From: Rhodoplanes sp. Z2-YC6860
GTDB lineage: Bacteria; Pseudomonadota; Alphaproteobacteria; Rhizobiales; Xanthobacteraceae
DNA length: 64,000 nt
Direction: 5' to 3'
Assembly: GCF_001579845.1 (NCBI RefSeq)
Contig: NZ_CP007440.1
Location: 992,001 to 1,056,000 of the forward strand
Shown: in pieces, positions 32,316 to 51,546 of the stretch
How the letters are laid out: the number at the start of each line of letters is the position of its first letter
Numbering within the stretch: position 1 is the stretch's first letter
Translations under genes and position numbers: made by a program
Notes under the pieces: generated by a model
Seen by the model: only the letters and a program-made list of their open reading frames with translations
The model's database searches: none
Told to the model about the DNA's origin: nothing

Positions 32316-33484
32316 GCGGCCTTCGAACCCCAGAGCCTGCCGCTTGCGATCGCGGCGCCTTCGCTCAGCGATTTCAGTTTCGCCCAGACGATGCTGTCGG
32401 CCACGATCGGATCGGTGCGCACCGCGGTGCCGAAGCCGCAATCGACGCCGGCGATCACCCGCTCGCGGCCGACAATATCAGCGTAACGCCCGATGCGCTG
32501 CGCCACGAGCTTCGGATGTTCGACGAAATTCGTGGTCGAGTCGATCACGCCGGGGATGAGCACCTTGTCGTCCGGCACCTTGATGGTCCTCAGGTCTTCC
32601 CACTCGTGATCGTGGCGCGGATTGGCGGCCTCGATGCTGATCGCCTGCACGCGCGCCTTGAACGCGATGTCGATGATCTTGAGAAGCGGCAGGTCGAAAT
32701 TGTGCGGGCCTTCATAGTTGCCCCAGCAGATGTGCAGCCGGACCTTGTCGGCGGGAAGCCCTTCGAGCGCGCCGTTCAGCGCCTCGATGTTGCGTGCCGC
32801 GATCTTGCGGAACTGGTCGTCGGTCAGGTCGCGATACTGATTGTTGCGGCAGGAGCCGAGATCGGGCGCGTCGATCTGCAGCACGAAGCCCGCTTCGACG
32901 ATGGCGCGATATTCGGTCTTCATCATGTCGGCGAGCGCCGCGACATAGGCGTCTTCGTTCGGGTAGTGCAGGTTGATGATGAAGCGTGTCAGGATGCCGG
33001 GCGAGGGCGCGGTCATGAACACGTCGGCCGGCTTGGACTTCGCCGCGGCGGCCTTCAGATGCGCAAGGTCGCGGTCGAGCGCGCTGCGGTCCTTGTACTT
33101 CAACGGGCCGACGCAGCCCGGAAACGGCGAGTCCGAAAAATTGCGGCGGCGGCCGGCGAAATCGGGATGCGCGAGCAGATCGTTGCCGATCATGATGTCG
33201 CGACCCTTCTCGGCCGCGCGCGGGTCCATCTGGATGCCGTCAACGCGGTGGCGGATGTAGGTCGTGTAGGACGGCTTGCTCATCTCGCCGTCGCTGACGA
33301 CGTCGACGCCGCAGGCCACCTGCTGCGCCACAATTTCGTCGACCGCCTTGGCGGTCGCGGCCTCGAACGTGGCGGCGTCGATGTTCTCGCCCTTTTCGCG
33401 GCGCAGGATGATGTCCATCAGCGATTGCGGCCGCGGCAGGCTGCCGGTGTGGGTGGTGAGGATGCGGTCGGTGCTGGTCTTCAT
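32312..33484 (-). CDS. Cobalamin-independent methionine synthase-like protein (MetE C-terminal family)
   Basis: 390 residues corresponding to the catalytic C-terminal half of MetE. The start contains TTHTGSLPRPQSLMD, typical of the short MetE-like group. Zinc ligands appear as His and Cys in LHICWGNYEGPHNFD and the distal Cys in AGVDCGFGTAVRTD. Members transfer methyl or alkyl groups to or from thiols; the group includes epoxyalkane:CoM transferase, so methionine synthesis is not assured. Its ATG overlaps the stop of eutC by 4 nt, and its stop overlaps the secreted-protein gene. Confidence 0.88.
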   Translation of the reverse strand: MKTSTDRILTTHTGSLPRPQSLMDIILRREKGENIDAATFEAATAKAVDEIVAQQVACGVDVVSDGEMSKPSYTTYIRHRVDGIQMDPRAAEKGRDIMIGNDLLAHPDFAGRRRNFSDSPFPGCVGPLKYKDRSALDRDLAHLKAAAAKSKPADVFMTAPSPGILTRFIINLHYPNEDAYVAALADMMKTEYRAIVEAGFVLQIDAPDLGSCRNNQYRDLTDDQFRKIAARNIEALNGALEGLPADKVRLHICWGNYEGPHNFDLPLLKIIDIAFKARVQAISIEAANPRHDHEWEDLRTIKVPDDKVLIPGVIDSTTNFVEHPKLVAQRIGRYADIVGRERVIAGVDCGFGTAVRTDPIVADSIVWAKLKSLSEGAAIASGRLWGSKAA

Positions 33485-34284
33485 GGCTTGCTCCCGGCGT
33501 CACGCGTCTTGTTGGTGATCGTAGCCTGCACTTGCGCCTGATCCGAGTCATCTTTCAGTGAGACACCCGAGATGCGCCGCGCGCGCATGGCGCGCAGCAG
33601 ATGGGCGAGCTTGAACTCGGCGTCGGCATAAGGAATGCCGTCGGGCCGGATGTTGGAGATGCAGTTGCGGTCGGCGTCGGTGGTGCCGGGATGCGGCTGC
33701 CACGTCAGATACGCGCCCATGCTGTCGGGCGCGGTTAATCCCGGCCGCTCGCCGATCAGCACCGCGACGCTGTCGCTGCCCAACAGCGACGCGATGGCGT
33801 CGCCCACCGCGACGCGGCCGTGGCGGACGATGACGAGCGGGCCGATGCGCCAGCCTTCGGCGCGGAGCGCCTTGATGGTTCCGGTCAGCACCGGCTGCGC
33901 GTGGCGCTGCACGGCGCGCGCCGAAAGTCCGTCGGCGATGACGAACACGGCGTCATGGCGGGCTGCGCGCGGCGCGAGCTTCGCTTCCCCGTCAGGCGCG
34001 AGTTTGCGGCCGAGATCGGGACGCATCAGATAGCGCTGGCGATCCTCCGCGGCGCTATCGATGGTGATGACATCGATGCCGAGCGGCGCGAGGTCTGTGG
34101 CAAGCTGCTTGGTATCCAGTTCGTCGTGCACCGCGTCGCGGGCGCGGGCATGGGCGAGCTTGAAATCGAGCAGCGGTCCGGTCGCCAGCGACGCGCCGGC
34201 GCGTGGCAATCCGATGCGCGCGCCGCTCAAGCGGCGCAGGTCGTCCCAAAGGCTGCGATCCTGCTTTGTGGGTTCGTCGGCCAT
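33481..34284 (-). CDS. eutC: Ethanolamine ammonia-lyase small subunit EutC
   Basis: 267 residues from ATG 34284 (MADEPTKQDRSLWDDLRRLS). Conserved features are GARIGLPRAGASLATGPLLD, FVIADGLSARAVQRHA, and the C-terminal NCISNIRPDGIPYADAEFK and HLLRAMRARRISGVSLKD. EutC with EutB forms the adenosylcobalamin-dependent lyase that converts ethanolamine to acetaldehyde and ammonia. It lies 5 nt after eutB. No microcompartment shell genes, eutA reactivase or ethanolamine permease are in the window. Confidence 0.95.
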   Translation of the reverse strand: MADEPTKQDRSLWDDLRRLSGARIGLPRAGASLATGPLLDFKLAHARARDAVHDELDTKQLATDLAPLGIDVITIDSAAEDRQRYLMRPDLGRKLAPDGEAKLAPRAARHDAVFVIADGLSARAVQRHAQPVLTGTIKALRAEGWRIGPLVIVRHGRVAVGDAIASLLGSDSVAVLIGERPGLTAPDSMGAYLTWQPHPGTTDADRNCISNIRPDGIPYADAEFKLAHLLRAMRARRISGVSLKDDSDQAQVQATITNKTRDAGSKP

Positions 34285-34289
34285 GTTCG

Positions 34290-35666
34290 TTACGCCGGCA
34301 ACAGCGCGCGGAAACGGCCCGGAATGCCGGGCGGCCGGATGCGTTGGACGTCGTCGACCAGCCCTTGCCGCGCCAGCCACGCTTCGAACTCGGGCGCGGG
34401 TTTTTTGCCAAGGAGATCGCGCATCGCCAGCGCGTCGTGGAACGACGTGCTCTGGTAGCCGAGCATGATGTCGTCGGCGCCCGGCACGCCCATCACGAAA
34501 TTGACGCCGGCCGCGACCAGCAGCGTGAGCAGCGCATCCATGTCGTCCTGGTCGGCTTCGGCGTGGTTGGTGTAGCAGACGTCGACGCCCATCGGCACGC
34601 CCATCAGCTTGCCGCAGAAATGATCTTCCAAGCCGGCGCGCGTGATCTGCTTGCCGTCGAACAGGTATTCCGGGCCTATGAAGCCGACGACGGTGTTGAC
34701 CAGCAGCGGCTTGAAATGCCGCGCCACCGCGTAGGCGCGCGCCTCCAAGGTCTGCTGGTCGACGCCATGATGAGCATTGGCCGAGAGCGCGCTGCCCTGA
34801 CCGGTCTCGAAATACATCACGTTGTCGCCAATCGTGCCGCGCCGAAGCGCGAGCGCGGCGTCGCGGGCCTCAGTGAGCAACGCGAGGTCGATGCCGAAGC
34901 TTTTGTTGGCCGCTTCAGTGCCGGCGATGGATTGGAACACGAGATCGACCGGTGAGCCCGAACGGATCAGGCCGAGCGTGGTCGTCACATGAGCCAGCAC
35001 GCATGCCTGCGTCGGGATTTCGAGCTTGGTTCGGATCTCATCGAGCATCGAGAGCAGTTGATGCGCGCGCTCCGGGCTGTCGGTGGCCGGATTGATGCCG
35101 ATCACGGCGTCGCCCGATCCGAGCAGCAGCCCGTCAAGAATGCTCGCCGCAATCCCGCGCGCATCGTCGGTCGGATGGTTCGGCTGAAGCCTAACCGACA
35201 GCCGGCCGGGGAGGCCGACGGTCGAGCGGAAGCGCGTCACGACCGAGCACTTCGCCGCCATGACCATCAGGTCCTGCAGCCTGCTGATCTTGCTGACCGC
35301 TGCCGCCATCTCGGGCGTGACGCCGGGCGCCAGCGCCGCGAGCTTCGGAGTTGTGGCTTCGTCGGACAGCAGCCAGTCGCGAAAGCTGCCGACGGTCAGA
35401 TGCGCGATCGGCGCAAATGCCTTCTTGTCGTGGCCGTCGATGATCAGGCGCGTCACCTCGTCCGTCTTATAAGGAACCAGTTCTTCTTGAAGGAACGTCG
35501 TGAGCGGCAAGTCGGCCAGCGCGTATTGCGCGGCGACGCGCTCCTCGCCGGTCTCGGCGGCGAGCCCCGCGAGCTGGTCGCCGCTGCGCAATGGTGTCGC
35601 CGTCGCCATCAGCGTCTTGAGATCGCTGAAGGTAAAACGGCGGCCGCCGATGGTCGCGCTGTACAT
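34290..35666 (-). CDS. eutB: Ethanolamine ammonia-lyase large subunit EutB
   Basis: 458 residues, close to the usual ~453. Typical stretches are GEERVAAQYALADLPLTTFL, GLPGRLSVRLQPNHPTDDAR, GLLLGSGDAVIGINPATDSP, QSIAGTEAANKSFGI, and CYTNHAEADQDDMDALLTLL, and the C-terminus contains VMGVPGADDIMLGYQSTSFH. It is the catalytic TIM-barrel subunit that binds adenosylcobalamin with EutC. The first gene of a four-gene operon, it is divergent from a ThDP enzyme with only 105 nt between starts; no cobalamin riboswitch is apparent there. Confidence 0.96.
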   Translation of the reverse strand: MYSATIGGRRFTFSDLKTLMATATPLRSGDQLAGLAAETGEERVAAQYALADLPLTTFLQEELVPYKTDEVTRLIIDGHDKKAFAPIAHLTVGSFRDWLLSDEATTPKLAALAPGVTPEMAAAVSKISRLQDLMVMAAKCSVVTRFRSTVGLPGRLSVRLQPNHPTDDARGIAASILDGLLLGSGDAVIGINPATDSPERAHQLLSMLDEIRTKLEIPTQACVLAHVTTTLGLIRSGSPVDLVFQSIAGTEAANKSFGIDLALLTEARDAALALRRGTIGDNVMYFETGQGSALSANAHHGVDQQTLEARAYAVARHFKPLLVNTVVGFIGPEYLFDGKQITRAGLEDHFCGKLMGVPMGVDVCYTNHAEADQDDMDALLTLLVAAGVNFVMGVPGADDIMLGYQSTSFHDALAMRDLLGKKPAPEFEAWLARQGLVDDVQRIRPPGIPGRFRALLPA

Positions 35667-38625: not shown

Positions 38626-39420
38626 TCAGCAGCTTGCCATGATCTCTTTGATTTTAGGCCAATTTTCCCGGCCTTGCCGTTTCATGAGCGTGAGATAGTC
38701 GGCGTTTTCCCAGCGCGTGATGCCCTCCTTGAAGCTCGGACGGGCCTGAATCCGCCGATACCAGTCGGCCACCCGCGGTGTCGGTTCCAGCATTCCCAGC
38801 ACATCGAGATGGTCCAGGCGGACCACATAGGGCGTGAACGCCGCATCGGCGATGCTGTAGTCGGCGCCGGCCAGCCAGGCGTGTTTGGTCAGTGAGTCTT
38901 CCATGTCGCGATAAAGCGTGAGCAGCCGCGAGATCGCGATCTTGAAGAAGGCTGAGTCCAAGCCTTTCTCGATCACGTCGCGGCGACGCTCGCGCTTGAT
39001 CGGATCGGGAATGCTTTCGAGCATTTCCTTCCCGGCTTCGCCCTTCGAGATGTACTGATGCCGGAATGCGACGCCGAAGCTCAGGATCGCGATGCCCGCG
39101 TCATGCACGCCTTCGTCGAGCTGCTTGGTCCAGAGCCGCATCTTGGCGCGTCCGAACGGATCGGCCGGCTTCAGCGGCGGATCGGGAAAGCGCTCGTCGA
39201 GATATTCATTGATGACGTTGGACTCAGGGACAACGATATCGCCATCGATCAATGTCGGCACCACGGCGCGCGGGTTAAGCTTGACGTACCAGTCCTGCTG
39301 ATGCTCGCCGGCGCGCAGATTGAGATGCCGGCTTTCATACTGCAGGCCCTTCTCGGCCAGCATCAGCCGCACCTTCTGGGCGCAGCTCGACATATCATTG
39401 TGATAGAGCGCAAGCGTCAT
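38626..39420 (-). CDS. Glutathione S-transferase family protein
   Basis: 264 residues. The thioredoxin-like N-terminal domain has the catalytic-site segment YHNDMSSCAQKVRLMLAEKG, the cis-Pro VVPTLIDGDI, and the glutathione-binding ES pair in VVPESNVINEYLDE. The all-helical C-terminal domain contains WLAGADYSIADAAFTPYV. The SSCAQK active site resembles zeta-, beta- or LigE/F-like enzymes (isomerases or etherases) more than detoxifying classes. Its start overlaps the stop of the Pht5-like gene (ATGA), so the two act together. Confidence 0.88.
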   Translation of the reverse strand: MTLALYHNDMSSCAQKVRLMLAEKGLQYESRHLNLRAGEHQQDWYVKLNPRAVVPTLIDGDIVVPESNVINEYLDERFPDPPLKPADPFGRAKMRLWTKQLDEGVHDAGIAILSFGVAFRHQYISKGEAGKEMLESIPDPIKRERRRDVIEKGLDSAFFKIAISRLLTLYRDMEDSLTKHAWLAGADYSIADAAFTPYVVRLDHLDVLGMLEPTPRVADWYRRIQARPSFKEGITRWENADYLTLMKRQGRENWPKIKEIMASC

Positions 39421-40412
39421 ATCCGAAGCTCCACATTCACTTCCTTGGGAAACAGCTCTTCGATCGCGAGCTTTCGGCTCGTCACGCCTTGTTCGTGGCA
39501 GAACGCGAGAAACGGCTCCAGCGTGCTGCGGTTCTTGTCGATGCCGTAAGGCCAGGGGTCGCCGTCGCCAAACAACGCGCGATTGGTTTGCTCGAAGTGG
39601 TCATCACTCCACGCAGTGGGCAAAAACGAGATTTGTCCCTGATAGAGCGCCGGAAGACACGCGCGCTTGGCTCGCTCAAAAGCTTCCAGCAGGTTGCGCG
39701 CGATCCAACGGTTCTGCTCGAACACGGCACGGCGCATCACGAGGACATGCATGATCGGGAAGATGCCCGTCTTCCTGAAATATTGCAGCTCGTGCTCGCG
39801 ATAGTCTGGAATGAGCCTTTTCACGTCATGTTTGCCATCGAGGAACACGTCGGGCGGACGCGCCGTGATCATGGCGTCGATCTCGCCGTCGAGCAGAAGC
39901 TCGTTGAGGCTCTTGTCCTGCCGGCTCGTGAGTTTGAAACCGGGCGGCAGCTCGAATTTCGCCATTTCTTTGCGGCCGCGATCGTTGACGCCCGCCTGGA
40001 TCCAGTCGATGGAGGTGAGCGGAACGCCGACGTCGTGCTGCAGCCACCCGCGCACATAAGTCACGGCGGTCTGCGTCCATTGCGGGATGCCGATCCGTTT
40101 GCCCTTGAGGTCGGACGGCTTTCCGATCTTGGAGCCGCCTGCCACATAGATCGAACCGTGCCGAAACACCCGTGACGGAAAAATCGGTAGTCCAACCATC
40201 GGCGAATTGCCCGCCGCCGTAATGGTGCAATAGGTCGCGAGCGAGAATTCGGAGATTTCCCATTCTTCGGATGCCAGGAAACGATAGGCGATCTGTTCGA
40301 ACGGATGGTTGAGCACGCGAAGGTCGATGCCTTCCGGTTTGATCCGGCCGCTGGCGAGCTCCCGTGTGTGCAGATAATCGCCGATGGCGAGCGTCAACGG
40401 CAGGTCGGACAT
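39417..40412 (-). CDS. 4,5-dihydroxyphthalate decarboxylase-like protein (binding-protein fold, no signal peptide), A
   Basis: 331 residues from ATG 40412 (MSDLPLTLAIGDYLHTRELA). The pattern IKPEGIDLRVLNHPFEQIAY, EISEFSLATYCTITA, and LKGKRIGIPQWTQTAVTYVRGWL fits the 4,5-dihydroxyphthalate decarboxylase family, which shares the periplasmic-binding-protein fold. There is no signal peptide, so it is probably cytoplasmic and enzymatic. It resembles the divergent gene at 40632 in many places (both have FPIMHVLVMRR / FPIMHTVVIRR and GDPWPYGI / GDPWPYGL). Coupled to the GST gene downstream. Confidence 0.78.
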   Translation of the reverse strand: MSDLPLTLAIGDYLHTRELASGRIKPEGIDLRVLNHPFEQIAYRFLASEEWEISEFSLATYCTITAAGNSPMVGLPIFPSRVFRHGSIYVAGGSKIGKPSDLKGKRIGIPQWTQTAVTYVRGWLQHDVGVPLTSIDWIQAGVNDRGRKEMAKFELPPGFKLTSRQDKSLNELLLDGEIDAMITARPPDVFLDGKHDVKRLIPDYREHELQYFRKTGIFPIMHVLVMRRAVFEQNRWIARNLLEAFERAKRACLPALYQGQISFLPTAWSDDHFEQTNRALFGDGDPWPYGIDKNRSTLEPFLAFCHEQGVTSRKLAIEELFPKEVNVELRI

Positions 40413-40631
40413 CAGCGTCGCACTCCCAGAATTTTGCGGCATCAGAGCCCGATCGCGACCGCCTGGGCAAGGCCACTGTCACCATAGCCGCCCGAAGGGA
40501 CGGCGTCGCTTCGCTCGCTTATGGGGGCAGCCATGCTTTCGCTCGCGAACGCACCTGTTAGACTGCCGTCTGTCTGCGGCCGGACAACGGTTGCGAAAAA
40601 GACTGCGCGCCAAGATGCACGAGGGGATGGA

Positions 40632-41627
40632 ATGCCGAAACTGCCGCTCACCTTTGCCTGCGGGCTCTACGATCGCATGCAGGCGCTCTACACCGGCGAG
40701 GTGCAGGTCGAAGGCGTCGACCTCAACTTCCTGGTCGACGACAATCCGCGCAACATCTTCGACCGCATGGCCGCGGGGCAGGAGTTCGACGCCGCCGAGT
40801 TCTCCAGCTCCGAATACATCTCGCGCTTCGTCGCCAACCAGTGCCCGTTCGTCGCCATCCCGGTGTTCGCCTCGCGGGTGTTCCGGCACAGCTTCATCTT
40901 CATCAACAAGAAGCACATCAAGTCGCCGAAAGAGCTCGAGGGCAAGCGCATCGGCGTGCCGGTCTATACGATGACGGCCGCGATCTTCATCCGCGGGCTC
41001 TTGAGCGACGAGCACGGCATCGATTTCTCCAAGTGCGAATGGGTCGAGGGTGACATCAACAGCGCCAAGCCGCACGGCAATCCGACCATCCTGCCGACCG
41101 CGAAGAAGCTCTTCATCGCGGCCAACAAGTCCGGAAAGTCGCTGAGCAGGATGCTGGAAGACGGCGAGCTCCAGGCCATCATCGGCACCGGCGTGCCGGA
41201 GGCCTATGGCCGCAATCCCGATATCGTGCGGCTTTATCCGGACTATCGCGCGGCCGAGATGGACTACTACAAGCGCACCAGGATCTTCCCGATCATGCAC
41301 ACCGTGGTGATCCGCCGCGACGTGCATGAGAAGCATCCGTTCCTCGCGACCGCGCTCTATCACGCGCTCGATCGGTCGAAGAACCTCGCGCTGAAGAAGA
41401 TGAACTACCGCGGCACGCTGCGTTACATGCTGCCGTGGATGACGGAGGAGCTCGACCAGATCGCCGACGTGTTCGGCGGCGATCCGTGGCCTTACGGCCT
41501 CGAACCGAATCGGCCGACGCTCAGTGCGCTGGTGCGCTACCTGGAAGAGCAGGGCGTGATCGCCAAGGCGCCCAAGGTCGACGATCTGTTCGTGCCGGTG
41601 CGGCAGATCCATCCGATGCAGCACTAG
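40632..41627 (+). CDS. 4,5-dihydroxyphthalate decarboxylase-like protein (binding-protein fold, no signal peptide), B
   Basis: 331 residues from ATG 40632, preceded by GAGGGGATGGA. The start MPKLPLTFACGLYDRMQALY has no export signal. Family landmarks are VEGVDLNFLVDDNPRNIFDR, DAAEFSSSEYISRFVA, and LEGKRIGVPVYTMTAAIFIR. It is a paralogue of the divergent protein at 39417, with 219 nt between starts. It lies 8 nt before an ABC permease and is the first gene of a five-gene operon, so it either decarboxylates an imported aromatic acid or, less likely, serves as an unusual non-exported receptor. Confidence 0.8.
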   Translation: MPKLPLTFACGLYDRMQALYTGEVQVEGVDLNFLVDDNPRNIFDRMAAGQEFDAAEFSSSEYISRFVANQCPFVAIPVFASRVFRHSFIFINKKHIKSPKELEGKRIGVPVYTMTAAIFIRGLLSDEHGIDFSKCEWVEGDINSAKPHGNPTILPTAKKLFIAANKSGKSLSRMLEDGELQAIIGTGVPEAYGRNPDIVRLYPDYRAAEMDYYKRTRIFPIMHTVVIRRDVHEKHPFLATALYHALDRSKNLALKKMNYRGTLRYMLPWMTEELDQIADVFGGDPWPYGLEPNRPTLSALVRYLEEQGVIAKAPKVDDLFVPVRQIHPMQH

Positions 41628-41635
41628 GGCCGTTC

Positions 41636-42412
41636 ATGCGTTGGCGTGTCACCATCGACCGGCTGATCGTTCTCGTGATCCTGCTGGCGTTGTGGCAGGC
41701 CGGCAGCATGGCGTTCGGCGATTATTGGCTGAGCACGCCATGGGGGACCGTGACGCGGTTCTTTGCGTCGCTCGGCAACGGCGAGCTGTTCTTCCACGGC
41801 AGCTACACCATCAGCGAGGCGCTGGCCGGCTGCGTCATCGGCGGCGTGCCGGCGGTGCTGCTGCCGTTCTGGCTGCGGCGCTATCCGGTGATCGTCGCCA
41901 TCCTCGATCCGTTCATGGTCGGCGGCTATGGCGCGCCGAAGCTCGCCTTTGCGCCGCTGTTCATCCTGTGGTTCGGCATCGGCATCGAGTCCAAGATCGC
42001 GCTGGTCGCGGTCGTGGTGTTCTTCATCGTCTATTTCTCGACGCTGTCCGGCGTCCGCGCGCTCGACACAAGGCTGGTGCGGATGGCGCAGCTCGTCGGC
42101 GCGAACGAGCGCCAGGTCGGCCGGCATATCGTGTTTCCCGGCGCGGTGCCCTCGATCTTCGCGGGCTTCCGCATCGCGGTGCCTTACGCGATCGGCGGCG
42201 CGGTGATCGCCGAGCTGATCTCATCGAACCGCGGGCTCGGCTATCTGGTGCAGACCGGAGCGATGAATTTCGACACCACGCAGGTGTTCGTCGCGATCCT
42301 CGCCGCAACCGTCATCGTCCACGCCTTCATCGCCATCGTCGACGTGGCCGAACGCTTCCTGTTGCGCTGGCGGCCGCGCGGCGGCGCGCTGGTCGTCGAT
42401 CACGGGACCTGA
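41636..42412 (+). CDS. ABC transporter permease, NitT/TauT family (cluster 3, first)
   Basis: 258 residues from ATG 41636 (MRWRVTIDRLIVLVILLALW), with about six membrane helices. The coupling loop is near VFPGAVPSIFAGFRIAVPYA. The start lies 8 nt after the Pht5-like gene. The ATPase gene follows after 2 nt. Differs in sequence from the second permease at 43349. Confidence 0.92.
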   Translation: MRWRVTIDRLIVLVILLALWQAGSMAFGDYWLSTPWGTVTRFFASLGNGELFFHGSYTISEALAGCVIGGVPAVLLPFWLRRYPVIVAILDPFMVGGYGAPKLAFAPLFILWFGIGIESKIALVAVVVFFIVYFSTLSGVRALDTRLVRMAQLVGANERQVGRHIVFPGAVPSIFAGFRIAVPYAIGGAVIAELISSNRGLGYLVQTGAMNFDTTQVFVAILAATVIVHAFIAIVDVAERFLLRWRPRGGALVVDHGT

Positions 42413-42414
42413 CG

Positions 42415-43212
42415 ATGGCCGTGACGCCGATGCTCGACATCAAAGGTCTCGGCAAGCGCTTTCCGGCGCGGGAAGGCCGTGAGCCGCCGCCGTGGATCAT
42501 CCAGGACCTGTCGTTCTCGGTCGGCGCCGGCGAGCTCCTGACCATCATCGGGCCTTCAGGGGCAGGCAAATCGACGCTGCTCAACATCATTGCGCAGATC
42601 GAAACCGCGAGCGCCGGCGAGGTCACGTTCGACGGTGAGCGCACCGTCTCGGCCGAGCAGAAGGTCTTGCATCCCGGGCTCAACCGCCGCGTCGGCTATG
42701 TGACGCAGGACGATAACCTTTTGCCCTGGCGCACCACGGTCGACAACGTGCTGTTTCCGCTCGAGGTGCAGGGCCGGCTCGACGACAGCGCGCGGGCGCG
42801 CGCCGCCGAGTTGATCGCGGCGGTCGGGCTCAACGGCTTCGAGCGGTATTACCCGCACGAACTCTCCGGCGGCATGCGCAAGCGCGCAGCGCTCATTCGC
42901 ACGCTGGTCTATGACCCGCCGATGATCCTGATGGACGAACCGTTCGGCGCGGTCGATGCACAGACCCGCACGCAGCTTCAGAGCGATCTGCTGCGGCTGT
43001 GGAGCCTCAAGCGCAAGACCATCATCTTCGTCACCCATGACATCACCGAAGCGATTGCCTTGGGAGACCGTGCGCTCGTGCTGACGCGAAGGCCTGCAAA
43101 GATCGCGGCCGAACATCCGATCCCGATCCCGCGGCCGCGCGACGTGAAGAACATCTTCACGACACCGAGTTTTACCGCGATCTACGAGCGCATCCGGGCG
43201 GACGTGCAATGA
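42415..43212 (+). CDS. ABC transporter ATP-binding protein, NitT/TauT family (cluster 3)
   Basis: 265 residues. Walker A is GPSGAGKST, the Q-loop lies in GYVTQDDNLLPWRTTV, the signature is LSGGMRKRAALIRTL, Walker B is MILMDEPFGAVDAQTR, and the H-loop is FVTHDITEAI. It sits between two permease genes; the following permease is separated by a palindromic repeat rather than being directly coupled. Confidence 0.95.
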   Translation: MAVTPMLDIKGLGKRFPAREGREPPPWIIQDLSFSVGAGELLTIIGPSGAGKSTLLNIIAQIETASAGEVTFDGERTVSAEQKVLHPGLNRRVGYVTQDDNLLPWRTTVDNVLFPLEVQGRLDDSARARAAELIAAVGLNGFERYYPHELSGGMRKRAALIRTLVYDPPMILMDEPFGAVDAQTRTQLQSDLLRLWSLKRKTIIFVTHDITEAIALGDRALVLTRRPAKIAAEHPIPIPRPRDVKNIFTTPSFTAIYERIRADVQ

Positions 43213-43234
43213 TTGGGCACGGGAATCCTCAGCG

Positions 43235-43340
43235 GTCATTCCGGGGCGCTCGCGTCAGCGAGCGAACCCGGAATCCAGTAGCGCTGGCGGTGTATTTGTC
43301 TGGATTCCGGGTTCCGGCCTTCGGCCGGCCCCGGAATGAC
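43235..43340. repeat. Intergenic GTCATTCC-GGAATGAC element, copy 2 (inside an operon)
   Basis: Begins GTCATTCCGGGGCGCTCGCG and ends CGGCCGGCCCCGGAATGAC. Internal halves GAACCCGGAATCCAG and CTGGATTCCGGGTTC pair. It lies between the ATPase and the second permease of cluster 3 and ends only 8 nt before the permease start, so it may affect transcript stability or expression balance. Confidence 0.88.
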
Positions 43341-43348
43341 GGTGTGGC

Positions 43349-44164
43349 ATGAGCAGTGCCGACGTCGCCGACGAATTCTCCGAAGTCCGCGGCATCCCGC
43401 GGCAGTGGATCGTGATCGGCGGGCGCATCCTGCTGGGGCTCGCCTTGCTGGCTGCCTGGGAATGGGGCTCGCGCAGCTTCGGCCCGCTGTTTTTCGCGCC
43501 GCCGCTTGCCACGGCACAGCGCATCGTCGAAATGGCTGCGAGCGGCAAGCTTCTGACCGACGTAATCGCGACCTTGCGCGTCTCGGCACTGGGTTTCGTG
43601 ATCGGCTGCGCCTGCGGCATCGGTCTGCCATTCTTGCTGCGGCGTTCGGAGCGCCTGACGCAGGCCATCGAGCCGTTCATTCTGGCCTCGATGGGCATTC
43701 CGAAATACGCGCTGACGCCGTGGCTCATTCTGTGGTTCGGCATCGGCGACCGGCCGAAGGTCATCGTCGTGACGCTGTTCGTGTTCTACATCGTGTTCAT
43801 CACGGTGTTCGCCGGCATGCGGAGCGTCGATCCGCGGCTGATCAGTATGGCGCGCGTGGTCGGCGCGAGCGAGCGCGCCATCGCCCGCAAGGTGATCTGG
43901 GTGTCGCTGCTGCCGTTCTTCTTCACCGGCTTGAAGGTGGCGCTGCCGCGAGCGGTCAGCGCCGCGATCGTGGGTGAGTTCCTGGTCGCGACCGAAGGCA
44001 TCGGATTTTCGATCGAACGCGCGCGGCAGTTGTCCGACACGACGGGCGTGTTTGCCGGCATCGTCATCGCGGTGGCGCTGGTGCTTCTGATCAACGGGAT
44101 CGTCAACGTACTGGAGCGCCGCGCGCTGAAGTGGCGGCCGACCGACCGCGACATGCAGATATAA
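43349..44164 (+). CDS. ABC transporter permease, NitT/TauT family (cluster 3, second)
   Basis: 271 residues. A short hydrophilic N-terminus (MSSADVADEFSEVRGIPRQW) is followed by about six helices. The coupling loop region is LLPFFFTGLKVALPRAVSAA. It is on the same strand as the ATPase and the FAH-family gene that follows 10 nt after. The repeat directly upstream replaces a normal leader and no strong ribosome-binding site is evident. Confidence 0.9.
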   Translation: MSSADVADEFSEVRGIPRQWIVIGGRILLGLALLAAWEWGSRSFGPLFFAPPLATAQRIVEMAASGKLLTDVIATLRVSALGFVIGCACGIGLPFLLRRSERLTQAIEPFILASMGIPKYALTPWLILWFGIGDRPKVIVVTLFVFYIVFITVFAGMRSVDPRLISMARVVGASERAIARKVIWVSLLPFFFTGLKVALPRAVSAAIVGEFLVATEGIGFSIERARQLSDTTGVFAGIVIAVALVLLINGIVNVLERRALKWRPTDRDMQI

Positions 44165-44174
44165 GGAGTCTCGG

Positions 44175-45005
44175 ATGAAGCTCGCGAGTTATGTGGCCGG
44201 CGGTCAGGAATGCTACGGCGTCGTGACCGATGACGGCGTCATCACCATGCGCGGCCATGCCTCGCTGCGCGACGCGCTGGCGGCCGGCGCGCTGGAGGGC
44301 ATGCGCAGTGCCGCCGCCATCGCCAAGCCCGACTTCAAGCTTGCGGATATCCACTTTCTGCCGGTCATTCCGAACCCGCATAAGATTCTCTGCGCCGGCG
44401 TGAACTACAAATCGCACGCCGCCGAGGTCGGCCGCGAGCTGCCGAAGCAGCCGAGCATGTTCATCCGCTTCACCGACACGCTGGTCGGTCATCAGGGCCA
44501 GATGATCCGGCCGAAGCTCTCGGACAATTTCGATTTCGAAGGCGAACTGACCATGGTGATCAGCAAGGGCGGGCGGCACATCCCGATCGACAAAGCGCTC
44601 GACCATGTGGCGGGCTACACCATCTTTGTCGACGGCAGCGTGCGCGACTACCAGAAGTTTTCCGTCACCTCGGGCAAGAACTGGCCCGGGACCGGTCCGC
44701 TCGGGCCGTGGATGGTCACCGCCGACGAAATCCCCGATCCAAGCAAACTCACGCTGACCACGCGGCTCAACGGCCAGCAGGTGCAGCATTCCGGAACCGA
44801 CAAGCTGATCTATTCGTGCCAGCAGATCGTGAGCTTCTGCTCCGACTTCACCGAGCTGCATCCCGGCGACATCATCGCCACCGGCACGCCGGAGGGCGTC
44901 GGCCACAGCCGCAAGCCGCCGCTCTGGATGAAGCCCGGCGATTTGCTGGAGGTCGAGATTTCGAAGATCGGCGTGCTGCGCACCAAGATCGTCGACGAAA
45001 ATTAG
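44175..45005 (+). CDS. Fumarylacetoacetate hydrolase (FAH) family protein
   Basis: 276 residues. The FAH core is recognised by PHKILCAGVNYKSHAAEVGR, the metal ligands ExE in FDFEGELTMV, the Asp/Lys region in IFVDGSVRDYQKFSVTSGKN, and the closing GDIIATGTPEGVGHSRKPP. Members hydrolyse C-C bonds of fumarylacetoacetate or fumarylpyruvate, or decarboxylate oxaloacetate. As the last gene of the importer operon, with a GST and Pht5-like proteins next door, it would fit a ring-cleavage-type lower pathway; the substrate is inferred. Start preceded by AAGGAGTC. Confidence 0.92.
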   Translation: MKLASYVAGGQECYGVVTDDGVITMRGHASLRDALAAGALEGMRSAAAIAKPDFKLADIHFLPVIPNPHKILCAGVNYKSHAAEVGRELPKQPSMFIRFTDTLVGHQGQMIRPKLSDNFDFEGELTMVISKGGRHIPIDKALDHVAGYTIFVDGSVRDYQKFSVTSGKNWPGTGPLGPWMVTADEIPDPSKLTLTTRLNGQQVQHSGTDKLIYSCQQIVSFCSDFTELHPGDIIATGTPEGVGHSRKPPLWMKPGDLLEVEISKIGVLRTKIVDEN

Positions 45006-45011
45006 CCCTCG

Positions 45012-45118
45012 GTCATTCCGGGGCGCTCGCGAAGCGAGCGAACCCGGAATCCAGAAACATCGGGACTGCCTCCGGAACTGGATTCCGGGTTCGCCACTTC
45101 GTGGCGCCCCGGAATGAC
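45012..45118. repeat. Intergenic GTCATTCC-GGAATGAC element, copy 3
   Basis: Begins GTCATTCCGGGGCGCTCGCG, with the hairpin GCTCGC-GAA-GCGAGC, and ends GTGGCGCCCCGGAATGAC. It lies 6 nt after the FAH-family gene and 8 nt before the end of the convergent receptor gene. It is placed as a possible bidirectional terminator. Confidence 0.88.
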
Positions 45119-45126
45119 CGCGGAGT

Positions 45127-46137
45127 TTATTTCACATACTCATCCGTGAAGAGCCCGTCGTAGCTCTTGAGCTTGGCGTCTGCCTTCATCATGCCGGCCT
45201 CGACGTTGAAGTCGTCGGCATTCTCCAGCGCCTGTTTCGTGACCACAGGGACCTTCGGCGTCGATTTGAGAATCTCGTCATAAGCCGCGGCGATCAGCTT
45301 CGGCTCGAGATTGGGAAACTTCCTGCCGAGCAGTGCCACGACCTCGGCCGGATGGCTGTGCATGTAGGCGATCGCCTCCGTCACCACGCGGCCCATGGCG
45401 ACACAGATTGGTTTGCGCTTCTCGCAGGTTTCGGGCTTCGCCAGGATCACGTTGTAGGCGAAGTTGATCGCGTTCGACGGGTCGCCATCGGGACCGCTTG
45501 CGATCACCACCGAAGCGCCGTCGACCACGGGCTTGAGCGGCCAGGGCGGGCTGTTCGACATGCCGTCGATCTGCTTGCTCTGGAACGCCGCCCACATGGC
45601 GTTGCCTTCCAGCGCGGTGACGCGCAGGCCGTCGGGCCCGATGCCGGCGCGTGACGCAATTGCAAGCAGGTAGGCATGCGGATTGGCGTTGATCGCGCCG
45701 ACACCGAAACTCTTGCCGCGCAGCACCGCGGCGCGCTTTTCCAGCGGCGCCTTGGCGTCGAAGCCCGCGGCTTCGGCAACCTCCTTGCGCATGGTGATCA
45801 TCACGATGTTGCGCTCGGCGGTGTTGGCGATGGCGAGAAGGCGCTGGCCGCGCGCCGCGGCCCGCGTCAAGGTCGAGCCGCCGGCTTGCACGAAATCGGC
45901 GCTGCCTGCGATCATCGCGTTGGTGGCGCCGACGCCCTGGATCTGCACGATCTTCACCTGCAGGCCGTATTTGGCCCAGAGCCCGAGCTCCTCGGCGACG
46001 AGATTGGGCGTCGACGTGAAGGTGAAATTCGGCATCGCGATGACGATGTTGTCGAGCGCCGCGGCGGGCCGTGTCGAAACGGGTAGTGCGAGCAGCATGG
46101 CGAGGGCAGGGAAAAAGCGCATGGCGCGCTCCGTCAT
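45127..46137 (-). CDS. ABC-type substrate-binding protein, NitT/TauT family, tandem copy A
   Basis: 336 residues with a signal peptide ending near RPAAA. The mature protein starts LDNIVIAMPNFTFTSTPNLV and includes GFDAKAPLEKRAAVLRGKSF, AAFQSKQIDGMSNSPPWPLK, and IASGPDGDPSNAINF. It has a CEKRKPIC pair, likely a disulfide, and ends LKSYDGLFTDEYVK. It has exactly the same length as the neighbour at 46134 and is a clear paralogue. The genes overlap by 4 nt. The probable partners are the cluster 3 permeases and ATPase. Confidence 0.9.
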   Translation of the reverse strand: MTERAMRFFPALAMLLALPVSTRPAAALDNIVIAMPNFTFTSTPNLVAEELGLWAKYGLQVKIVQIQGVGATNAMIAGSADFVQAGGSTLTRAAARGQRLLAIANTAERNIVMITMRKEVAEAAGFDAKAPLEKRAAVLRGKSFGVGAINANPHAYLLAIASRAGIGPDGLRVTALEGNAMWAAFQSKQIDGMSNSPPWPLKPVVDGASVVIASGPDGDPSNAINFAYNVILAKPETCEKRKPICVAMGRVVTEAIAYMHSHPAEVVALLGRKFPNLEPKLIAAAYDEILKSTPKVPVVTKQALENADDFNVEAGMMKADAKLKSYDGLFTDEYVK

Positions 46138-47144
46138 TTGACGAACTCGTCGGTGAACAGGCCGTCGTAGGATTTCAATTTCTCGTCGGGCTTGAGCAGG
46201 CCGGCATCGACGTTGAAGATTTCCGAATTCTCGATCGAGGCCTTGAGCACCACCGGCGGCGACGGCGTGACCTTGCGCAGTTCGTCGAATGAGGCCTTCA
46301 GCAGCGGCTCGTCAAGCGTTGGAAAACGCTTCTTCAGGACCGCGAAGGCTTCGTCGGGCTTGTCCTTGATGAAGGCCGTAGCGTCCTTGATCGACTGGCC
46401 GACCGCTTGGCAAAGCGCCTTCTTCTGCACGCAGGTGTCCTGCCGGGCGACGATCAGGTTGTGGCCGAACGGGATCATGTCGCCCGGTTCGCCGTCGGGG
46501 CCGCTTGCGATCAGCAGCGCTTCGCCGTCCTGCACCGCCTTGAGCGGCCAGGGCAGCGACATCGCATAGCCATCGATCTGCTTGCTCTGGAACGCGGCGA
46601 GCATGCTGTTCGGCGCCATCGGCGCGATGCGGACCTCGTCCGGCTTGAAGCCAGCGCGCGCGGCGATCAGCCGCAGATAGGCATGGATCATCGAATTGAT
46701 GGAATCTACCGCGATGGTGCGGCCCTTCAGCAGCGCGGCGCGCTTTTCCAGCGGCGCCTTGGCGTCGAAGCCGCCGGCCTGCGCGATCTCCTTGCGCAGC
46801 ACCACCTGGGCGAACGGCCGGTCGATCGTGGTGGCGATCGCAATCAGCTTCTGGCCGCGTGCGCTGGCACGGCCGAACGAGCTCGCCGAAGCCTGGGCAA
46901 ACTGTGCGCTGCCGGATATCACCGAATTGATTGCGGCGATGCCCGAAAGCTGCACGGTTTTCACCTTGATGCCGTGCTTCTGCCAGAGGTCGAGGTCGGT
47001 TGCGATATAGCCGGCGGCGAACGTCAGGCTGAAGGCCGGATCGGCCAGGACGATCTCTTCGTTGGATTGCGCCTTGAGCGGAGCCGACCCGCCGACTGCG
47101 GCGATGGCCGCAACAGCGGCGATAAAAAGCATCGGAACGCGCAT
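46134..47144 (-). CDS. ABC-type substrate-binding protein, NitT/TauT family, tandem copy B
   Basis: 336 residues with a signal peptide ending near SAPLKAQ. It shares GFDAKAPLEKRAALLKGRTI, AAFQSKQIDGYAMSLPWPLK, the Cys pair CVQKKALC, and the C-terminus LKSYDGLFTDEFVK with copy A. It is transcribed first in the pair, and its stop overlaps the start of copy A. The first-lobe ligand region differs (LADPAFSLTFAAGYIATDL), so the ligands may differ. Confidence 0.9.
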   Translation of the reverse strand: MRVPMLFIAAVAAIAAVGGSAPLKAQSNEEIVLADPAFSLTFAAGYIATDLDLWQKHGIKVKTVQLSGIAAINSVISGSAQFAQASASSFGRASARGQKLIAIATTIDRPFAQVVLRKEIAQAGGFDAKAPLEKRAALLKGRTIAVDSINSMIHAYLRLIAARAGFKPDEVRIAPMAPNSMLAAFQSKQIDGYAMSLPWPLKAVQDGEALLIASGPDGEPGDMIPFGHNLIVARQDTCVQKKALCQAVGQSIKDATAFIKDKPDEAFAVLKKRFPTLDEPLLKASFDELRKVTPSPPVVLKASIENSEIFNVDAGLLKPDEKLKSYDGLFTDEFVK

Positions 47145-47322: not shown

Positions 47323-48291
47323 ATGAAGAAATGGATCGCCGCGGTCGCGGTATTGGTCGTTGCCGGCGCGAGCGCCGCGCAGGCCGCCGAGAAGCTCAAG
47401 GTCGCCATCCCGCAAAAGGGCTTCTGGGACAGCTCCTGGGTCGAGTTCGGTGAGGCTGCAGGCTTCTTCAAAGAGGCCGGCCTCGAAATCGAGGTGTTCT
47501 ACACCGAGGGCGGCGCCCAAACGATCGCGACGGTTGCGTCCGGCAGCGTCGATATCGCGATGTCGAACGGCATCCTCGGCGCCATCGGCGCGTATGCCAA
47601 AGGCGGCGACGCCACGCCTTATCGCATCATCTCGGCGGAGATGACCGGCGCCCACGAGCTGTTCTGGTGGGTCAAGGCCGACAGCCCGATCAAGACGCTG
47701 AAGGACGCGGGCGAGGGCAAGACCGTGGCGTTCTCTTCACCGGGCTCGTCATCGAACCTGATCCTGCTGACGCTGTTGAAGCAGGCTGGTTCCAAAGCCA
47801 AGCCGACGCCGGTCGGCGGTGCGCCTGCGTCGTACACGCAGACCATGACCGGTCAGATCGATGTCGGCTGGTCGGTGGTGCCGTTCGCGCTGCAGGACGT
47901 CAATGACGGCAAGGCCCGCATCGTGGCGAAAGCGCGCGAGGCGACCGAGCTTCTCAACCAGACCATCCGGGCCAATCTCGCCAACGTCAATTCGCTGAAG
48001 ACCAAGCGCGAGGCCATCACCAAGTTCATGCAGGTGATCCAGAAGTCGATCGACTGGGGCTACAGCAACCCTCAGGCGATCGAGATCTTCGCCCGCAACA
48101 TGAAGGTGAGCAACGCGATCGCCAAGCAGGCGGTGGACGAGTTCTATCCCAAGTCGGCGATGCAGATTGGCGAGATCAAAGATCTCGACCGCTCGCTGAA
48201 GGATGCGCTGGATTACAAATTCCTGACAGCGCCGAAGACCGCGAAGGACATCGCCGGCCTCATCGACATCGTTTACAAGCCGTCGAAGTGA
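47323..48291 (+). CDS. ABC-type substrate-binding protein, SsuA/TauA-like
   Basis: 322 residues with a signal peptide (MKKWIAAVAVLVVAGASAAQ then A). The mature start AEKLKVAIPQKGFWDSSWVE and GFFKEAGLEIEVFYTEGGAQ are typical of the first lobe; VASGSVDIAMSNGILGAIGA is a standard ligand-binding-lobe motif. It is divergent from the tandem receptors (178 nt between starts). GGGAGGATTGGA precedes its ATG. No transport genes follow, so it is an orphan receptor or a partner of cluster 3. Confidence 0.9.
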   Translation: MKKWIAAVAVLVVAGASAAQAAEKLKVAIPQKGFWDSSWVEFGEAAGFFKEAGLEIEVFYTEGGAQTIATVASGSVDIAMSNGILGAIGAYAKGGDATPYRIISAEMTGAHELFWWVKADSPIKTLKDAGEGKTVAFSSPGSSSNLILLTLLKQAGSKAKPTPVGGAPASYTQTMTGQIDVGWSVVPFALQDVNDGKARIVAKAREATELLNQTIRANLANVNSLKTKREAITKFMQVIQKSIDWGYSNPQAIEIFARNMKVSNAIAKQAVDEFYPKSAMQIGEIKDLDRSLKDALDYKFLTAPKTAKDIAGLIDIVYKPSK

Positions 48292-50163: not shown

Positions 50164-51546
50164 ATGTCGAACAGACTGCGATCGATTGCGACGGCCGTGG
50201 CGGCCCTGATCCTCATCGGCGGCGCCGCAGCCTATTGGTGGCAGCCGGCTCGGCCGCAACAACAGCAGCAACGTTTCGGCCGCAATTTTCGCGGCGATGA
50301 TGGGCCGGTTCCCGTCATCGCGGCGCAGAGCCGCCGTGCCGACGTGCCGGTCTATCTCGACGGCGTCGGCACCGTGAGGGCGCTCAACACCGTGACGGTG
50401 CGGTCGCAGGTCGACGGCAAGCTGCTCAGCGTCAACTACACCGAGGGCCAGGACGTCGAGGCCGGCTTCGTGCTCGCCAAGATCGATCCGGTCACCTACC
50501 AGGCCGCCTACGATCAGGCGGTGGCGAAGAAGGCCCAGGACGAAGCAACGCTGGGCAATGCGCGGCTCGATCTCGCGCGCTACGCCAAGCTGTCGGCGAG
50601 CAACGCGGTCGCGCAGCAGCAATACGACCTGCAGAAGGCGACGGTGGCGCAGCTCGAGGCGCAGGTGCGGCTCGATCAGGCGGCGATCGACAACGCCAAG
50701 GCGATTCTCGACTACACTGCGATCGTTGCACCGATCGCCGGCCGCACCGGTATCCGTCAGGTTGACCAGGGCAATATCGTCCACGCCTCCGACTCGACCG
50801 GCATCGTGGTGATCACGCAGCTTCAGCCGATTTCGCTGCTGTTCACGTTGCCGCAACAGATGCTCGGCGACGTCAACCGTGCGATGGGCCAGAGGCCATT
50901 GTCGGTGGACGCCTTCGGCCCCGACAACAAGACCGTGGTCGAAAGCGGCGTGCTCAAGGTGGTCGACAACCAGGTCGACCAGACCACCGGCACGATCAAG
51001 CTCAAGGCCGAGTTTCCCAACGCCAACCTGCAGCTTTGGCCGGGCGGTTTCGTCAACGTCCGCCTGCTGATCAACACGCTGAAGGATGTGGTGGTGGTGC
51101 CGACCGCGGCCGTGCAGCGCGGACCGCGCGGCGCTTTCGTCTATGTGGTCCAGCCCGAAAACAAGGTTTCGGTCCGGCAGGTGTCCGTCGGCCAGCAGGA
51201 CGAAAACCAGGCTGTGCTCGATAAGGGCGTCGAGGCCGGCGAGCGCGTCGTCACCACCGGTTTCGCGCGCCTGACCAATGGCGCCGACGTGGCGGTGACC
51301 AACGCCGAACAAATGCCCGCGCCCGGTACGGAAGCAAGTCCGCCGCAAAGTGAACGGCGCCGCGGGCGCGGTCAGCGCCGTGAGCAGCGGTCTGAGGCGG
51401 AGGCCACTCCATCGACCAACGCCCAACAGAGCCCTGCGCCGGACGGGGAAGCTGGCCAGCCGCAGGCTGAACGGCGCCGCGGCAACGGCCAGCGCCGCGA
51501 ACAACGATCGGAAGCGGAAGCCACGCCTCCGAGCCAGCAGCGATGA
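50164..51546 (+). CDS. RND efflux periplasmic adaptor (membrane fusion protein, MdtA-like)
   Basis: About 460 residues. An N-terminal membrane anchor (LRSIATAVAALILIGGAAAY) precedes the biotinyl-lipoyl hairpin (VRSQVDGKLLSVNYTEGQDV) and the alpha-helical hairpin (about residues 115-180). Then come the barrel and membrane-proximal domains (VVVPTAAVQRGPRGAFVYVV). The C-terminus has an unusual 78-residue basic extension made of two tandem repeats. ATG 50164 chosen; a TTG at 50149 is possible. It overlaps the first RND gene by 4 nt. Confidence 0.93.
   Translation: MSNRLRSIATAVAALILIGGAAAYWWQPARPQQQQQRFGRNFRGDDGPVPVIAAQSRRADVPVYLDGVGTVRALNTVTVRSQVDGKLLSVNYTEGQDVEAGFVLAKIDPVTYQAAYDQAVAKKAQDEATLGNARLDLARYAKLSASNAVAQQQYDLQKATVAQLEAQVRLDQAAIDNAKAILDYTAIVAPIAGRTGIRQVDQGNIVHASDSTGIVVITQLQPISLLFTLPQQMLGDVNRAMGQRPLSVDAFGPDNKTVVESGVLKVVDNQVDQTTGTIKLKAEFPNANLQLWPGGFVNVRLLINTLKDVVVVPTAAVQRGPRGAFVYVVQPENKVSVRQVSVGQQDENQAVLDKGVEAGERVVTTGFARLTNGADVAVTNAEQMPAPGTEASPPQSERRRGRGQRREQRSEAEATPSTNAQQSPAPDGEAGQPQAERRRGNGQRREQRSEAEATPPSQQR
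51301..51534 (+). repeat. Tandem 117-bp in-frame repeat (two units) in the adaptor gene
   Basis: Units 51301-51417 and 51418-51534 each encode 39 residues: NAEQMPAPGT... and NAQQSPAPDG.... The stretches QRREQRSEAEATP are identical, and RRRGRG is RRRGNG in the second unit. The repeat encodes a basic, disordered C-terminal tail. Confidence 0.9.

Follow-up and report, generated by a model that had tools for sequence, protein, structure and literature searches.

The window considered here, a 64,000-nucleotide stretch (positions 992,001 to 1,056,000) of the single 8.19 Mb contig NZ_CP007440.1 of Rhodoplanes sp. Z2-YC6860, carries a ten-gene cluster that includes an ATP-binding cassette (ABC) importer. 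On the reverse strand, a gene for a 331-residue protein resembling the 4,5-dihydroxyphthalate decarboxylase Pht5 (Pht5-like protein A, 39417..40412), which bears no export signal, overlaps by 4 bases the start of a gene for a 264-residue glutathione S-transferase (GST) family protein (38626..39420), the latter assigned from profile and structure-relative matches. The forward-strand operon begins with Pht5-like protein B (40632..41627; 331 residues), a predicted cytoplasmic decarboxylase-like enzyme of the periplasmic binding protein (PBP) fold whose likely start, judged from a ribosome-binding site and a conserved N-terminus, lies 37 residues inside the longest open reading frame. It continues with ABC permease 1 of the SsuC/TauC type (41636..42412), an ABC ATPase of the TauB/SsuB/SaoA type (42415..43212) and ABC permease 2 (43349..44164), all recognised by profile matches, and with a fumarylacetoacetate hydrolase (FAH) family C-C hydrolase/decarboxylase (44175..45005), identified by profiles and alignment, in which the H-x-x-E and E-x-E...D pattern is intact. 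Beyond the operon lie genes for three exported substrate-binding proteins (SBPs): SBP1 (45127..46122) and SBP2 (46134..47144), both of the NMT1/SsuA type and on the reverse strand, and SBP3 (47323..48291) on the forward strand. All three were recognised by profiles, complemented by a hydropathy proxy for export and, in SBP2, also by a structural model. An earlier interpretation made from the letters alone (the sequence-only reading) had placed the first seven of these genes as we do, with starts now refined, and was right that the forward operon encodes no exported receptor; the exported SBP1 and SBP2 adjoin the FAH gene on the other strand.

The importer implied by that reading was receptor-less, a view that is not supported, since the importer is nearly always accompanied by the SBPs at 45127-47144, which the reading had itself put forward as candidates. 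Of the 249 genomes surveyed in the family, 11 have permease 1 (presence being taken as at least 65% identity) and 12 an SBP2-like gene, with 11 genomes shared (Fisher P=2.6e-18, a value that is only indicative because the genomes are related). Within the genus, the importer and SBP1/SBP2 occupy two slots flanking the FAH gene, and these are jointly present in four of nine loci (G000, G006, G002 and G004, G006 keeping SBP2 only) and jointly absent from five (G003, G007, G001, G010 and G008). By parsimony on a tree built from three proteins of the locus, this distribution needs at least three changes, and G002, where importer and SBPs are present, and G003, where they are absent, are sisters. 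Across the same nine loci, B and SBP3 are kept in all, the FAH gene in eight and the GST gene in seven. The importer also adjoins an SBP2-like gene in three loci (L213, L214 and L215) with no Pht5-like gene alongside, a remote Pht5-like homolog (27%) lying about 5 kb away in L214. By profile, SBP1 and SBP2 belong to the NMT1/SsuA group, and the SBP2 model, in which the signal region is disordered, is closest to true receptors, namely a thiamin-binding SBP, TauA and SsuA. With an exported NMT1-type SBP, a BPD permease and an ABC ATPase all in place, the system belongs to the NMT1/TauABC-type ABC importers; the best profile names are SsuA, SsuC and TauB, and all such matches fall far below curated cut-offs. 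Co-inheritance and fold link SBP1 and SBP2 to the importer, and these two exported proteins are its predicted receptors; their physical partnership with it, and an aromatic ligand, are presumed.

Both Pht5-like proteins, which share 36% identity with each other, match 4,5-dihydroxyphthalate decarboxylase (PDB 9jp7) over the full length, A at 34% identity (E 1.8e-59) and B at 38% (E 2.3e-71). Superposition of B, as modelled by AlphaFold (pLDDT 87), on 9jp7 gives a template-modelling (TM) score of 0.88-0.90; scores drop to about 0.5-0.6 for ordinary SBPs, and to about 0.45-0.6 once MqnA, MqnD and Thi5, enzymes of the PBP fold, are included. The identity proposed in the sequence-only reading is borne out in this way for both proteins by sequence and for B by fold, and so is its statement that they lack an export signal: by a crude hydropathy proxy, which is not a signal-peptide predictor, none of 122 Pht5-like proteins passes the cut, vs 38 of 44 neighbouring SBPs, and the first strand of the B model starts at residue 4. 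A longer start for B was rejected as the source of a signal; the 37-residue extension contains no hydrophobic stretch (proxy 1.32). Residues E56, R82, H86, W137, H223, D284 and R294 are among the family-conserved positions common to 9jp7, A and B. A search of the accessible literature found no publication on the 9jp7 active site, and the residues in A and B were checked for family conservation only. In a phylogenetic tree, A and B fall in different well supported clades, which rules out a recent local duplication, and 9jp7 groups instead with another gene of the same genome at 3861065 (support 100/100; 68% identity). Because A and B lie outside the 9jp7 clade, they are best described as Pht5-like proteins whose substrate need not be 4,5-dihydroxyphthalate. 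Enzymes evolved on the SBP fold are an established phenomenon (PMC7683729), and a cytoplasmic enzyme role accounts for A and B better than that of a receptor without a signal. In the G002 locus (L073, 8911-9282), the Pht5-like A gene is shortened to 123 residues and no GST gene was called, which suggests that the A-GST arm is decaying there.

Comparisons with related loci uphold the aromatic catabolic context suggested by the sequence-only reading, in that similar clusters of relatives include hydroxylases and ring-cleaving dioxygenases. In two loci of the Rhodospirillales (L114 and L171), the gene order runs flavin hydroxylase, gentisate-1,2-dioxygenase-like cupin, Pht5-like protein, class II aldolase of the 3,4-dihydroxyphthalate-decarboxylase group, permease, ATPase and permease, with SBP2-like genes convergent. 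A more distant form of the importer (L227 and L228) stands in a run with its SBP, a GST, a BphC-type extradiol dioxygenase, an MhpA-type hydroxylase and an FAH protein. Within five genes of 79 loci encoding Pht5-like B, we counted class II aldolases at 24, dioxygenase-like cupins at 16 (several of them only 27-35% similar), FAH proteins at 11 and flavin hydroxylases at 8. In the Rhodoplanes genome itself, 5 of the 20 other Pht5-like loci have an FAH gene within 8 kb, where 0.70 would be expected (P=0.00025); an enrichment of TctC-type SBPs near Pht5-like loci was not significant among the best 150 of 462 candidates. A complete gentisate-type pathway is not found in the window cluster: the dioxygenase is present in L114 and L171, and the nearest homolog of the L171 dioxygenase in this genome lies at 7076005 (62% identical), with a flavin hydroxylase nearby. 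Neither a phthalate dioxygenase nor a dihydrodiol dehydrogenase occurs among the ten cluster proteins.

In the FAH-family protein, H81/E84 and E122/E124/D153 are invariant in all 20 aligned sequences; by analogy with FAHD1, we take the former pair to be the H-x-x-E dyad and the latter three residues to be metal ligands. The protein shares homology and catalytic pattern with the HpaG/HpcE decarboxylase, 2,4-didehydro-3-deoxyrhamnonate hydrolase and FAHD1, with matches below equivalog cut-offs. The GST, for which six other genus loci have orthologs (83-86%), had been proposed as a possible isomerase. That role stays conjectural: the match to the curated maiA (maleylacetoacetate isomerase) model reaches 83.6 bits against a cut-off of 171, and among solved structures the nearest relative over the full length is the beta-etherase LigF (E 2.4e-27, residues 1-233, 99 bits). 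Given this full-length similarity to LigF, isomerase and LigF-like etherase are both candidate functions.

Taken together, these observations lead us to favour, with some reserve, a cluster for uptake and breakdown of an aromatic, probably carboxylated, acid. SBP1 and SBP2 would capture the substrate in the periplasm and hand it to the importer formed by permease 1, the ATPase and permease 2. In the cytoplasm, B and A, enzymes by descent with a PBP fold, would remove a carboxyl group from the aromatic acid or from a hydroxylated derivative, decarboxylation being the most likely reaction in light of homology and shared conserved residues. Ring cleavage would be carried out by an oxygenase encoded elsewhere in the genome, and the FAH-family enzyme, with its intact catalytic pattern, would split or decarboxylate the cleavage product. 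An intermediate of the pathway may be the substrate of the GST, whose role would be that of an isomerase or of a LigF-like enzyme that cleaves ethers or conjugates. Several points weigh against this proposal. The window cluster contains no ring-cleaving oxygenase or hydroxylase, and about 2 to 6 Mb of chromosome separates it from the nearest homolog of the L171 dioxygenase in this genome. Neither A nor B groups with characterised Pht5, and across the genome the excess of permeases around Pht5-like loci is only weak (4 of 21 loci have one within 3 kb; 1.2 expected). One incomplete genome (G009) has SBP2 with no permease match, and SBP3 persists in loci that lack the importer. The proposed ligand and reactions are themselves predictions from sequence, fold and context.

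Other explanations of the locus must be weighed against the same data. SBP1 and SBP2 are encoded on the opposite strand from the importer, SBP3 is the SBP retained in every genus locus, and 101 NMT1-type matches in the genome mean that many receptors are available; the importer might then use SBP3 or a receptor encoded elsewhere, SBP1 and SBP2 being unrelated neighbours. We regard this as unlikely in view of the near-perfect co-occurrence of permease 1 and SBP2-like genes over the 249 genomes, the joint gain or loss of importer and SBPs in the genus, and the retention of SBP3 in loci that lack this importer. A and B could alternatively be non-catalytic cytoplasmic proteins that bind the imported compound as recipients or sensors, in keeping with their PBP fold, with the slight excess of nearby permeases, and with the recurrent placement of Pht5-like genes beside ABC importers of different types (L052, L064 and L065). 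Yet the nearest solved relative of B is an enzyme, at the TM scores given above, the family-conserved charged and histidine residues are retained in both proteins, and Pht5-like genes are more strongly associated with FAH and ring-cleavage genes, so that a purely binding role appears highly improbable.

The profile names SsuA, SsuC and TauB would suit a sulfonate- or taurine-type sulfur uptake system with incidental enzymes, but the shortfall of all these matches from curated cut-offs, the lack of a sulfonate monooxygenase among the cluster genes, and the aromatic hydroxylases and ring-cleaving dioxygenases of the relatives make such a system very unlikely. Among solved structures, LigF gives the GST its best full-length match, which raises the further alternative of a beta-aryl-ether (lignin-type) pathway whose lower part the cluster would encode, with the GST as etherase. 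This too we consider unlikely: the similarity is modest at 99 bits, no other Lig-type partner is present among the ten cluster proteins, and the GST is absent from some genus loci that retain B and FAH. Uptake and breakdown of an aromatic acid, with SBP1 and SBP2 as receptors, is the reading we prefer. The puzzle of an importer without a receptor resolves to an importer of standard kind, its predicted receptors encoded alongside, together with Pht5-like enzymes, and the apparent oddity is mostly ordinary because A and B are relatives of a cytoplasmic enzyme and the probable receptors are encoded next door.

Pht5 of Comamonas testosteroni KF-1 (9jp7) resembles A and B in full-length sequence, in the absent export signal and in conserved residues, the shared fold having been established for B; it differs at 34-38% identity and in clade, the close Pht5 match in this genome (68%) being the gene at 3861065. 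According to a review (PMC13040137), 4-hydroxyphthalate is another substrate of the Comamonas testosteroni enzyme. TauABC, SsuABC and SaoPA-type importers draw on the same permease, ATPase and NMT1-type SBP families as the window importer, which departs from them in its two different permeases, its matches below equivalog cut-offs and its aromatic catabolic context. Phthalate ABC importers, namely PatDABC of Rhodococcus and OphFGH of Burkholderia, use a dedicated SBP for an aromatic dicarboxylic acid (PMC13040137, PMC10973024). Rhodococcus PatDABC, as described in these papers, has two membrane subunits, like the window importer; also by description, both systems are tied to phthalate dioxygenase pathways, unlike the window cluster. 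MqnA, MqnD, Thi5 and cyclohexadienyl dehydratase are, like A and B, enzymes on the SBP fold (PMC7683729), although they catalyse other reactions and their fold likeness to B is distant (TM about 0.45-0.57 for those compared).

What remains of interest is the substrate question and the Pht5-like family itself, with 22 paralogs in one genome, only one of them close to Pht5. Published work on this strain describes an 8.2 Mb genome with 434 tripartite tricarboxylate transporter (TTT)-type binding proteins, so that the TctC expansion is already on record (PMC5994714); we scored at least 150 TctC-type SBPs, of 462 candidates. A word search of that paper for phthalate and decarboxylase found no mention of Pht5-like genes. 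We tentatively raise the possibility, somewhat short of even, that the Pht5-like proteins represent a large unrecognised radiation of cytoplasmic PBP-fold enzymes. If so, several decarboxylation or lyase reactions on aromatic acids that are not yet described may be found within it, because 22 members occur in one genome, only one of them near Pht5 and others beside different catabolic modules or importers. The family also offers enzymes for testing whose origin may lie in a binding-protein fold. With the receptor-less puzzle removed, a concrete transporter-receptor pair is available for a ligand test, and the case warns that fold-based annotation can turn cytoplasmic PBP-fold enzymes into 'receptors'. 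Elsewhere in the genome (L064, L065 and L052), other Pht5-like genes adjoin other ABC importers, including a PotABCD-like system, that bring their own SBP.

A repeat scan revealed two palindromic elements resembling repetitive extragenic palindromes (REP), one inside the operon between the ATPase and permease 2 genes (43235..43340) and a second between the FAH and SBP1 genes (45012..45118). Genome-wide, such compound palindromes yield 133 exact half-elements, vs none in a reversed control. A scan for terminators and promoters gave no clear excess vs shuffled sequence. Further along the window, two tandem 117-base repeats, 74% alike, lie at 51297-51530 near the 3' end of a membrane-fusion-protein gene. 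On the other side of the cluster, at 33481-35666, is a pair resembling the ethanolamine ammonia-lyase subunits EutB and EutC, named by eye and not by a family search; of the other genus loci inspected, G007 (L075) is the only one with a call for this pair.

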